DNA from: Burkholderiales bacterium
Lineage (GTDB): Bacteria; Pseudomonadota; Gammaproteobacteria; Burkholderiales; Burkholderiaceae_E
Assembly (NCBI GenBank): GCA_029977705.1
Contig: JAPOKJ010000002.1
Location: 1-64,000 of the forward strand
Length of the DNA: 64,000 bases
Direction: 5' to 3'
Each line of letters opens with the position of its first letter. The stretch's first letter is position 1. The notes under the pieces are model-generated. The model worked only from the letters and a program-made list of their open reading frames with translations, had not been told where the DNA came from and made no database searches. Positions 110 to 3,780 of the stretch are shown here, piece by piece. The translations under genes were made by a program, and so were the position numbers.

Positions 110-2311
110 ATGAAAAAAGTCGTGACGGTAACCCTCGGGTCCTCGAAACAGGATTTCTCTTTTGAAACCGAATTCCTCGGCCAGCGTTTCTCGGTCAAGC
201 GCCTGGGCGCCGACGATGACACCGGCAAGGCCTGGGAGCTGATGCGCCGGCAACAGGCCAGTGCCCACGCCATCGGCCTGGGCGAGATCGGGGACCACTA
301 TCAGGTCGGGCAACGGACCCTGGTGAACAAGGAGACCCAGCGCCTGCTCAATGTGGTCACCCGGGTGCCGGCCACCACGGGGGCCACCCTGCGACGCCTG
401 TTGCAGGTACGCGCAGTGCGCCATGTCCAGCAGAAGCTGGGCAATTATTTCAACAACAACCTGGTGCTCTTCCTGTCGGGGATGCGCAATTACGACATGG
501 CGGTGGCGATGTCGGACTACACCCCGAACCTGAGCTTCGCCGACGCCCTGGCACAGACCGGCGCCCCGACCCTGCTCGGTTCGCTGACCCAGCTGGAGCT
601 GTATGCCAAGGGCAGCGAGTTCGTGCTCGCGGGCCGGCCCGGCGAGATGCTCGAGAGCGCCCTGCCGGCGTTCAAGAGCAACCGCATCGCGGCGGCGATC
701 GCCAAGTCGCATGTGATCGTCGGCACCTTCGCTGAACTGAAGGCGGTGGGCAGCCCCGCCAATCTGGCCGGCAAGACCCTGATCACCTCGGCGGTCGATG
801 ACGAGCGGCTGGCCTTCTTCAAGCGCTGCAAGGTCAATCTGGTGATCGATGTCTCGCCCAAGCTGTTTGACCGGGTGGTCGGTGTCAATGTCATCGAGGC
901 GATGATCCTGGCGGCCCTGGGCAAGCGCGCCGAGGAAGTGTCGGATGATGATTTCTCCGAGATTCTCGATGAACTGTCGATCGAGCCGCGCCTGCTGCAT
1001 CCGACCGGCCAGTTCCGCAACATCCGGCGTTTTGCCTTCGTGATCCATCCGCTGAGCCAGGAATTCATCCGCAAGGGATTCCCGATTCCCAAGGGCACGC
1101 CCAAGTTCGTCATGGACCGGGTCGAGACCCTGGCTGCGCACATGCCGCCGATGGTCTACTGCAAGATGGAGAACATCATCTCGCCCACTGGCGCCGAGGC
1201 TGAGGGCTGGCTGATCACGGTGGGCGGCACGCCCAAGGAAATGCTGGCGCGCAGCCCCGAGTTCACCTACCGCCGTCTGCTGCATGCCTCGCGCATCGCC
1301 GAAAAGCTCGGCGCCCAGATCATGGGCCTGGGCGCTTTCACCAAGGTTGTCGGTGATGCCGGCATCACCGTGGCCCGCCGCTCGCGCCTGCCCATCACCA
1401 CGGGCAACTCGTACTCGGCCTCCGGTGCCCTGTGGGCAGCGGCCGACGCCATGCGGCGCATGAACCTGGTCCAGATCGACAAGAGCGACAAGCGTGTGCC
1501 GGCCAAGACCATGGTGATCGGCGCGACCGGGTCGATCGGTTCGGTCAGTGCACGCCTGCTGGCAATGGCCTTCGAGGAGGTCGTGGTGGCTGGCCGCGAC
1601 ATGAAAAAGCTGGAGGAATTGCGCCAGTCGATCCTCGAGGATACGCCCGATGCCAAGGTGGTGTGCTCCACCGACTACGACAGCCTGCTCGGCGAGATGG
1701 ACATGATCGTCACCTCGACATCGGGTGCCGGCAAGAAGATCCTGGACATCACCAAGGTCAAACCGGGTTGCGTGATCACCGATGTGGCGCGTCCGCTCGA
1801 CCTGCCTCCCGAAGAGGTGGCCAAGCGTCCCGATGTGCTGGTGATCGAGTCGGGCGAAATCGAGCTGCCGACCCAGGTCAAGGGCATGAAGAGCATCGGG
1901 CTGCCACCGAATGTGATCTACGCCTGCCTGGCCGAGACCATCGTGCTCGCACTGGAAGGCCGTTTCGAGGTCTTCACCGTCGGTCGCGATACCGAATGGG
2001 AGAAGGTCAAGGAAATCTACAAGCTGGGCCTGAAACATGGCATGAAGCTGGCGGCCATCTCGGGTGTGGGTGGCGTCCATACGGATGAAGCCATCGCCAA
2101 GGTGGTCGAGCTGGCCAGGAAGGCACGCCTGACCTGGAACAAGGGCGCAGGCAAGAAAGCGCCGGCTGCAAAGAAAGCACCGGCTGCAAAGAAAGCACCG
2201 GCTGCAAAGAAGGCCGGCGCAGCCCAAAAGGCACCGGCTGCGAAGAAGGCCAGTGCGGCGAAGAAGGCACCGGCAACCAGGAAGGCACCCGTTAGCAAGG
2301 TGGGCGCATGA
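110..2311 (+). CDS. Long-chain acyl-ACP reductase-like oxidoreductase with extra N-terminal domain and Lys/Ala/Pro repeat tail
   Basis: This 733-residue protein has three parts. Residues 1 to about 300 form a domain I do not recognise. Residues about 300 to 655 resemble, by memory of the family, cyanobacterial acyl-ACP reductase (AAR), which reduces acyl-ACP or acyl-CoA to fatty aldehyde with NADPH. The matching landmarks are a TTGNSYSA segment, the nucleotide-binding GATGSIG at 471-477, and YACLAE with Cys606 in the place of the catalytic cysteine of AAR. The C-terminal 50 residues or so are repeats of the type KKAPAA, like histone-H1-like tails. The start has a GGAG site 9 bp upstream. The stop overlaps the next gene, a WS/DGAT, by 4 bp (ATGA), so the two are almost certainly co-translated. 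Aldehyde or alcohol supply for wax esters is inferred; other acyl substrates are possible. Confidence 0.72.
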   Translation: MKKVVTVTLGSSKQDFSFETEFLGQRFSVKRLGADDDTGKAWELMRRQQASAHAIGLGEIGDHYQVGQRTLVNKETQRLLNVVTRVPATTGATLRRLLQVRAVRHVQQKLGNYFNNNLVLFLSGMRNYDMAVAMSDYTPNLSFADALAQTGAPTLLGSLTQLELYAKGSEFVLAGRPGEMLESALPAFKSNRIAAAIAKSHVIVGTFAELKAVGSPANLAGKTLITSAVDDERLAFFKRCKVNLVIDVSPKLFDRVVGVNVIEAMILAALGKRAEEVSDDDFSEILDELSIEPRLLHPTGQFRNIRRFAFVIHPLSQEFIRKGFPIPKGTPKFVMDRVETLAAHMPPMVYCKMENIISPTGAEAEGWLITVGGTPKEMLARSPEFTYRRLLHASRIAEKLGAQIMGLGAFTKVVGDAGITVARRSRLPITTGNSYSASGALWAAADAMRRMNLVQIDKSDKRVPAKTMVIGATGSIGSVSARLLAMAFEEVVVAGRDMKKLEELRQSILEDTPDAKVVCSTDYDSLLGEMDMIVTSTSGAGKKILDITKVKPGCVITDVARPLDLPPEEVAKRPDVLVIESGEIELPTQVKGMKSIGLPPNVIYACLAETIVLALEGRFEVFTVGRDTEWEKVKEIYKLGLKHGMKLAAISGVGGVHTDEAIAKVVELARKARLTWNKGAGKKAPAAKKAPAAKKAPAAKKAGAAQKAPAAKKASAAKKAPATRKAPVSKVGA
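2153..2298 (+). repeat. 18-bp coding tandem repeat encoding KKAPAA units
   Basis: Three near-identical 18-bp units begin at 2153, 2171 and 2189, followed by degenerate copies to about 2298. They encode Lys-Lys-Ala-Pro-Ala-Ala blocks at the end of the AAR-like protein. The near identity of the first three copies suggests recent expansion, and copy number may vary between strains. The composition is that of basic, disordered DNA-binding tails. Confidence 0.9.
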
Positions 2312-3780
2312 CAGCGGTGCGGCTGAGCCCGCTCGATGCCGCCTGGCTGTTCACCGAGTCGCGGGCGACCCCGAATCATGTCGGCGGCCTGCTCCAGTTC
2401 CGCCTGCCTGAGGATGCGCCGCGCGACTTCCTGCGTCAGCTGATGCATGAGTTTCGCCATCATCGCGACTTCGTGGCCCCCTGGAACCGCCGCCTGAAGG
2501 TCGCTTTCAACAAGAATCCGATACCCTCCTGGATCGAGGATGAGGACATCGACCTCGAATACCATGTACGCCACGCCGCCCTGCCCTGGCCAGGCGGCGA
2601 GCGCGAGCTGGGCGAACTGGTGGGCAGGCTGCACACCACACCGATCGACCTGACACGCCCCCCCTGGGAATGCACCATCATTGAAGGGCTGGAAGGGCAT
2701 CGCTTCGCGCTGTTCATCAAGATGCACCACTCGCTGATCGATGGCGTCAGCGGCATGAACCTGCTGCAGCGGGCGATGGCCGACAGCCGCGAAAAAAGTC
2801 TGGCGCTGCCCCCTTTCTGGGCCACCGGCTTTGGCAAGCCGGCCCGCAAGGAACGGCGCAGCAGTCCGACGCCTACGCTGGCCAACGCCACTGCAGCCGC
2901 CGTGCAAGGCCTGACCGAGCAGGCCCGTTCGCTGCCCCAGCTGGCCAGCGCATTTGGAAAGATTCTCAAGCGCATCGGCGATCCGCGCGACGGGCTGGCA
3001 GTGCCCTTCGATGCGCCTCGCTCGGTACTGAACGGCCGGGTACGCGAGAAGCGTCGCTTTGCCACGCAGCAGCTATCAATCGCGCGACTGCGCGCGGTCG
3101 GTGCAGCCTCCGGCTGCACCCTCAATGATGTGGTCCTTGCGGTCTGCGGAGGCGCCCTGCGGCGCTTCCTGCTCGAGCGCGACGCCCTGCCTGACAAGCC
3201 CCTGACCGCGGGGATCCCGGTATCGGTGCGGCCCAAGGATGACGAGGGCACGGGCAATGCAATCAGCTTCATCGTCGCCACGCTCGGGACGGACATCGAA
3301 GATGCCGCCGAGCGCCTGAAGGTCATCCGCTCCTCGGTGCAGCATGCCAAGGCCCATGTGCAGGGCCTGCCCCGCCAGGCCATGCAGCAGTACACGATGC
3401 TGCTGATGGCGCCGACCCTCATCACCCTGCTCACCGGCATTGGCGGCCGACCGCCGCCGATGTTCAACATCACGATCTCGAATGTTCCGGGCCCCGACAA
3501 GCCGCTTTACTTCAAGGGCGCCGAATTGCTGTCGATCTATCCGGCCTCGATCGTGACCCACGGCCAGGCCTTGAACATTACCTGCGAGAGCTATAACGGC
3601 ACGATGAATTTCGGCTTTACCGCCTGCCACGCTTCGATGCCCAGCATGCAGCGCCTGGCGGTCTATGCCTTCGAAGCCTTTGCCGAACTCGAGACCACCC
3701 TGCTGGGCGAAGCCTCGCCGGCACCTGCACCGCGCCGCGTCGCGGCCAAGCCAGGCAAGGCCCGCCCCAAACGGGGGTAG
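2308..3780 (+). CDS. Wax ester synthase/diacylglycerol acyltransferase (WS/DGAT)
   Basis: The 490-residue protein has the family length and both family landmarks: the catalytic HHxxxDG motif (His140, His141, Asp145, Gly146) and a C-terminal SNVPGP motif near residue 395. Members transfer an acyl group from acyl-CoA to a fatty alcohol (wax ester) or diacylglycerol (triacylglycerol) at the membrane and on lipid bodies. Its ATG overlaps the stop of the AAR-like gene, so the pair forms one operon. That partner could supply the aldehyde, although an aldehyde-to-alcohol step is not encoded next to it. The final 20 residues are basic and Ala/Pro-rich. Substrate choice cannot be read from the sequence. 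Confidence 0.93.
   Translation: MTAVRLSPLDAAWLFTESRATPNHVGGLLQFRLPEDAPRDFLRQLMHEFRHHRDFVAPWNRRLKVAFNKNPIPSWIEDEDIDLEYHVRHAALPWPGGERELGELVGRLHTTPIDLTRPPWECTIIEGLEGHRFALFIKMHHSLIDGVSGMNLLQRAMADSREKSLALPPFWATGFGKPARKERRSSPTPTLANATAAAVQGLTEQARSLPQLASAFGKILKRIGDPRDGLAVPFDAPRSVLNGRVREKRRFATQQLSIARLRAVGAASGCTLNDVVLAVCGGALRRFLLERDALPDKPLTAGIPVSVRPKDDEGTGNAISFIVATLGTDIEDAAERLKVIRSSVQHAKAHVQGLPRQAMQQYTMLLMAPTLITLLTGIGGRPPPMFNITISNVPGPDKPLYFKGAELLSIYPASIVTHGQALNITCESYNGTMNFGFTACHASMPSMQRLAVYAFEAFAELETTLLGEASPAPAPRRVAAKPGKARPKRG

Follow-up and report, generated by a model that had tools for sequence, protein, structure and literature searches.

The first gene in the window, the 64,000-nucleotide stretch of Burkholderiales contig JAPOKJ010000002.1 analysed here, encodes a probable enzyme of storage-lipid synthesis that ends in a long, strongly basic tail. 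Why should a lipid-synthesis enzyme carry an appendage resembling those of histone-like proteins? The features of the locus are:

110..2311, forward strand: putative tandem AAR-fold fatty acyl (ACP/CoA) reductase, 733 aa, first gene of the window (NCBIfam PigE and AcACP_reductase; PDB 4ppm, 6jzq and 6jzu; AlphaFold/Foldseek)
110..1099, forward strand: N-terminal half, predicted diverged second AAR-fold domain, with Asn N260 at the place of the catalytic Cys by eye (separate model; VIA-align)
1142..2074, forward strand: C-terminal half, AAR-type reductase domain (phmmer alignment to 6jzq/6jzu)
1925..1927, forward strand: codon of Cys606, aligned with catalytic Cys294 of cyanobacterial AAR
2126..2308, forward strand: basic C-terminal tail, 61 aa, net charge +18, predicted to be disordered from residue 679 (residue counts; pLDDT)
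2153..2289, forward strand: 18-bp tandem repeats coding for KKAPAA units (Tandem Repeats Finder)
2308..3780, forward strand: WS/DGAT (wax ester synthase/diacylglycerol acyltransferase; Pfam PF03007, E 7e-73; TIGR02946, E 3e-139)
3697..3777, forward strand: basic C-terminal extension of WS/DGAT, TLLGEASPAPAPRRVAAKPGKARPKRG, net charge +6 (residue counts)

Position 1 of the window is base 1 of the contig (C50), and positions 1-60 contain poly-C stretches.

The repeats detected by Tandem Repeats Finder have periods of 18 bp at 2153-2274, 36 bp at 2145-2274, and 54 bp at 2171-2289. They lie in frame within the open reading frame 110-2311 and are translated as GKKAPAAKKAPAAKKAPAAKKAGAAQKAPAAKKASAAKKAPATRKAPVSKVGA. 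Depending on where its start is placed, the K/A/P-rich tail is 55-61 residues long; the last 61 residues contain sixteen lysines and two arginines, no aspartate or glutamate, and almost no hydrophobic residue. Residues 679-733 have pLDDT values of 32-39 in the AlphaFold model of the reductase, and the tail is therefore predicted to be disordered. A previous interpretation of this DNA, referred to below as the sequence-only reading, had described the 18-bp repeats as encoding a basic KKAPAA tail of histone-H1 type. The coding of the tail is confirmed, and the likeness to H1 is supported; the span given for it, 2153-2298, holds the repeats but stops slightly short of the tail end at 2308. A disordered K/A/P-rich tail with PAKKA-like motifs is the hallmark of tethers of the PhaM, PhaF, MLDS, and AlgP kind, and the reductase carries one, while the 733-residue protein as a whole has no match to the H1-like family NF038053/HC2 at E 0.001.

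Such tails are rare. In net C-terminal charge, the reductase ranks first of the 324 genes called in 392 kb of its own genome (mean +1.5, s.d. 4.1), and a stricter test for K/A/P tails is passed by two of the 324, the reductase and a second WS/DGAT on contig C111. In Comamonas badia, 343 genes were sampled from outside the operon, and two of them are positive in the tail test. These tails thus occur on less than 1% of the sampled genes, where both gene sets are genome samples obtained with a simple GC-position gene caller and include some false open reading frames. Elsewhere in this study, tails were measured by whole-tail charge, because a strict test confined to the last 30 residues overlooks several real tails and was set aside.

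The catalytic part of the protein belongs to the AAR fold. Residues 345-655 give NCBIfam matches to the reductase half of PigE (E 1e-53) and to the cyanobacterial long-chain acyl-ACP reductase (AcACP_reductase, TIGR04058, E 2e-19). Both matches are far under the curated cut-offs (69.9 bits versus 449.7 for TIGR04058), and the enzyme is therefore a relative rather than an equivalog of cyanobacterial AAR. A phmmer search of the PDB recovered 6jzq (E 7e-15) and further matches 4ppm and 6jzu, and the best Foldseek match of the AlphaFold model (mean pLDDT 82.8) is AAR 6jzq_B (E 5e-18); in the structural alignment, identity to AAR is about 21-24%. Cys606, which corresponds to the catalytic Cys294 of AAR (PDB entry 6jzz is titled as the AAR-C294S form), is invariant in 32 orthologues. 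The N-terminal half has no Pfam match. When modelled alone it reached a pLDDT of 85, and its best structural matches were again AAR, with a VIA-align Z of 14.7 to 6jzq_B versus 10.4 for the highest-scoring chain that does not belong to the AAR/TAD entries. Judged by eye, residue N260, within GVNVIEAM, occupies the place of the catalytic cysteine in this half. The reductase thus looks like a tandem AAR, the first copy of which is probably without that catalysis. Cyanobacterial AAR and the N-terminal reductase domain of PigE share the fold and catalytic cysteine of the second half, whereas the reductase from the window differs from them in its two AAR-fold units in tandem and its basic tail; cyanobacterial AAR is a single domain of 341 residues. 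PigE itself has been reported to reduce a thioester (PMC8341465). Judged from these relatives, the reductase probably makes fatty aldehyde for storage wax, which supports the earlier placement of the tailed enzyme in lipid synthesis, here in a neutral-lipid, probably wax-ester, pathway.

The start codon of WS/DGAT overlaps the stop codon of the reductase (ATGA), and the protein scores 246 bits with PF03007, 128 bits with PF06974, and 465 bits with TIGR02946, versus a cut-off of 310. WS/DGATs encoded directly downstream of the reductase in the window and in loci L013-L016 each have a basic tail with a net charge of +6 to +12. We rejected the idea that the reductase tail tracks adjacency to WS/DGAT, since the reductases of L012, L017-L019, and L021 are tailed with no WS/DGAT nearby. 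The converse dependence of WS/DGAT tails on the reductase was also rejected, since tailed WS/DGATs are present in Burkholderiales relatives that have no reductase (L143-L148, L159); tags on neutral-lipid enzymes are therefore wider than the operon. Marinobacter has several WS/DGATs, with short Lys/Arg tails. Other neighbours have been reported for Betaproteobacteria in work on WS/DGAT gene clusters (PMC10351704). The second WS/DGAT of the window's own genome (L088, G000 contig C111:76393-77283) ends in the basic extension HAPRTPKARTQRRPGTA. In Comamonas, an aldehyde dehydrogenase (L013:9842-11278, Pfam Aldedh) directly follows WS/DGAT and perhaps represents a fatty aldehyde branch.

Nine betaproteobacterial loci (L012, L013, L014, L016-L021) include DNA upstream of the reductase gene, and in each of them the gene that immediately precedes it encodes an iron-type alcohol dehydrogenase (Fe-ADH). 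These dehydrogenases are 71-78% identical over the core to that of L016, which served as the reference, and all nine have a basic tail of 30-97 residues with a net charge of +5 to +16. None of 13 other iron-type dehydrogenases, from the same genomes and from the window's own genome, has a K/A/P tail (Fisher p 2e-6, relatedness not counted), and neither have the gamma- and deltaproteobacterial homologues of Fe-ADH. The orthologue was not found in the window's own genome, where the best matches are at most 40% identical and without K/A/P tails; the window starts at a contig edge, which perhaps cuts off the upstream gene. The sequence-only reading had placed the tail on one enzyme. The reductase indeed carries it, but the feature is not peculiar to the reductase and is common to Fe-ADH and the neighbouring WS/DGAT.

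One scan of 84,980 species genomes identified 72 loci in Betaproteobacteria (Comamonas, Rubrivivax, Azohydromonas, and others), Marinobacter (the majority), Halomonas-like bacteria, Desulfobacterales, and Bacillota. The distant Bacillota proteins match the N-terminal half of the reductase, and a separate gene for this AAR-fold half seems to be present there (L081-L083). None of 60 relatives of the host has the full-length reductase, and a scan of viral contigs found no relatives. In two Marinobacter-like loci (L008, L009), the reductase gene lies beside that of a class I fructose-bisphosphate aldolase, identified by eye, and not beside WS/DGAT. The betaproteobacterial reductases, including that of the window, form one clade (SH-aLRT 100), and all ten complete ones have a basic tail with a net charge of +16 to +23 and a length of 61-141 residues (63-141 in the nine besides the window), although these orthologues are related and the counts overstate their independence. 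Orthologues from Marinobacter have no tail and end near the end of the fold, those from the Halomonas group have short KKK ends, and the ends of those from Desulfobacterales vary. For the sequence-only reading, a tail absent from nearly all orthologues would have been a refutation; the outcome is divided, with the tail present in all ten complete betaproteobacterial proteins and in none from Marinobacter. Between species, the tails cannot be aligned in sequence and have no single common repeat. The exact 18-bp repeat of the window was rejected as a conserved unit, since the repeats of other species differ and only charge and composition persist. The net charge of the reductase tails has an s.d. 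of 2.5 versus 7.5 under a simple composition model. The model takes no account of shared ancestry, and the difference is only a hint that the charge may be under selection.

The same type of sequence occurs elsewhere in the window's own genome. A genome-wide pattern scan found the exact KKA-x-AAKKA pattern in the reductase gene only. Matches of a looser PAKKA-like scan that were examined belonged, besides isolated single matches, to two small H1-like proteins (C26, C121), a SWIB protein (C78) that has an H1-like arm, and topoisomerase III (C48), where they lie in the tail. By family, these four proteins act on DNA. Therefore, nucleoid DNA is the best guess for the partner of the reductase tail. 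The tail of DNA topoisomerase III (L270, G000 contig C48) is about 100 residues long, rich in K and A, and of H1 type.

To our knowledge, every described granule-to-nucleoid tether is a dedicated granule protein or a histone-like one. Like the reductase, the TAG lipid-droplet protein MLDS of Rhodococcus jostii RHA1 (ro02104) combines a C-terminal PAKKA-type basic tail with a link to neutral lipid. Its PAKKA motifs bind DNA and recruit DNA to TAG droplets (PMC5504291), and the earlier statement that no case was described for wax or TAG bodies is thus wrong for TAG. However, MLDS has a structural role on lipid droplets and its DNA binding was demonstrated by EMSA, whereas the tail in the window belongs to a biosynthetic enzyme from another phylum and is a putative DNA-binding element. 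PhaM of Ralstonia/Cupriavidus, which are also Betaproteobacteria, ties PHB granules to the nucleoid via lysines of its C-terminal PAKKA motifs, and PhaF does so for PHA (PMC9049629). PhaM is a non-enzymatic PHB-granule protein that binds and activates PhaC1, whereas here it is the enzymes of the pathway that bear the tags. PhaF of Pseudomonas and AlgP of P. aeruginosa resemble the reductase in their long, disordered, KPAA-rich tails, which bind DNA and set the spacing of PHA or polyphosphate granules, the latter by the KPAA tail of AlgP (PMC9239181), but they are phasin or histone-like proteins and not enzymes. HBHA/TadA of mycobacteria and rhodococci have a lysine/alanine/proline tail and a role in lipid inclusions. 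In mycobacterial HBHA, phosphoinositide binding and lipid-inclusion formation require the lysine-rich tail, in a methylation-dependent manner (PMC6176652); these proteins differ in that the tail is methylated and was tested for binding to phosphoinositide and heparin. Burkholderial H1-like proteins (NF038053, Pfam HC2) share the K/A/P repeats, but they are whole small DNA-binding proteins, whereas the tail in the window is an appendage to an enzyme.

Based on these observations, we tentatively propose, with confidence a little short of even, that the disordered polycationic tail is a tag that holds the reductase by charge, irrespective of sequence, on a polyanionic surface, most likely nucleoid DNA. 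The presence of tails on successive enzymes suggests that DNA, or some other negatively charged surface, keeps the wax-making enzymes together as a team. The reductase would convert a fatty acyl thioester to an aldehyde, Fe-ADH would convert the aldehyde to an alcohol, and WS/DGAT would join the alcohol with acyl-CoA to form a wax ester. Because all three enzymes bear tags in Betaproteobacteria, the pathway would be gathered at one place. Wax or TAG bodies would start at the nucleoid and be shared out along with it, and it is plausible from its pathway role that the reductase sits on the storage body. In favour of the tether are the steady charge of the reductase tails despite their varied length and sequence, the tails of Fe-ADH and WS/DGAT, the rarity of such tails elsewhere, the PAKKA-rich DNA-binding proteins of the same genome, and the DNA-binding tails that position storage bodies in MLDS, PhaM, PhaF, and AlgP. 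Against it count the untailed reductase of Marinobacter, which also has several WS/DGATs, the species in which WS/DGAT does not adjoin the reductase or is tailed without one, the Fe-ADH orthologue not found in the window's own genome, and the phosphoinositide binding of HBHA, which needs a similar tail (PMC6176652).

The main rival to nucleoid DNA as the partner is an anionic lipid surface. The tails would bind anionic phospholipid, either on lipid bodies or on the inner membrane at which WS/DGAT is active. The reductase and the alcohol dehydrogenase, both soluble, would in this way be gathered where wax is made, with DNA not involved. All three tailed enzymes are expected from their families to handle lipophilic intermediates, HBHA offers a lysine-rich tail needed for both phosphoinositide binding and the formation of lipid inclusions (PMC6176652), and in Marinobacter the short Lys/Arg tails are on WS/DGATs and not on the reductase. 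However, binding by HBHA requires lysine methylation, the same sequence type in the window's own genome is otherwise found on DNA-binding proteins, and the reductase tail is nearly free of hydrophobic residues and therefore does not form an amphipathic membrane helix. We consider the lipid surface unlikely.

Slippage in GC-rich repeats could also have produced the tails as low-complexity appendages that are tolerated and have no shared target. The near-identical 18-bp repeats of the window and the failure of tail sequences to align between species are in line with such an origin, but it would not account for tails on pathway enzymes that are rare elsewhere (2/324 and 2/343), for tailed Fe-ADH orthologues beside untailed paralogues, or for a net charge of the reductase tails far steadier than their length predicts under the composition model, which ignores shared ancestry. 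This origin is improbable in our judgement. Acyl carrier protein is strongly acidic, and the tail might raise the local concentration of this protein, or of polyphosphate, RNA, or another acidic partner, for a reductase whose catalytic domain is nearest to acyl-ACP reductases. Cyanobacterial AAR is without such a tail, however, and recruitment of acyl carrier protein leaves the tails of Fe-ADH and WS/DGAT unexplained, as neither enzyme is expected to use it; we regard this as very unlikely.

The tether on DNA can be extended to the whole pathway. We speculate that the betaproteobacterial wax-ester pathway is an electrostatically assembled cluster on the nucleoid, in which a disordered polycationic tail was acquired by each of three unrelated successive enzymes. 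The chromosome would then be the site of storage-lipid synthesis as such, and not only of the finished granules. This extension is possible but doubtful. Tethering of granules to the nucleoid is already known in principle; what seems to be new is that several successive enzymes of one pathway carry the tag. Text searches of open papers found no description of such tails on wax-synthesis enzymes, and one may exist. If successive enzymes of a pathway are each tagged, histone-like tails may be a general address label in bacteria, one that would bring a pathway together and fix where the storage body begins. The tails could also be used to bring enzymes together in strains that produce wax or TAG.

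Other C-terminal appendages were observed in the compared genomes. In Comamonas badia, an RsfS-like protein, identified by eye, has a long basic K/A tail (L195:18116-18799). The WS/DGATs of Desulfobacterales (L214, L215, L216) end in a Cys/His motif, CRAxxxxGxxCxNxAxxxxxYCxxH, which resembles a small zinc site.
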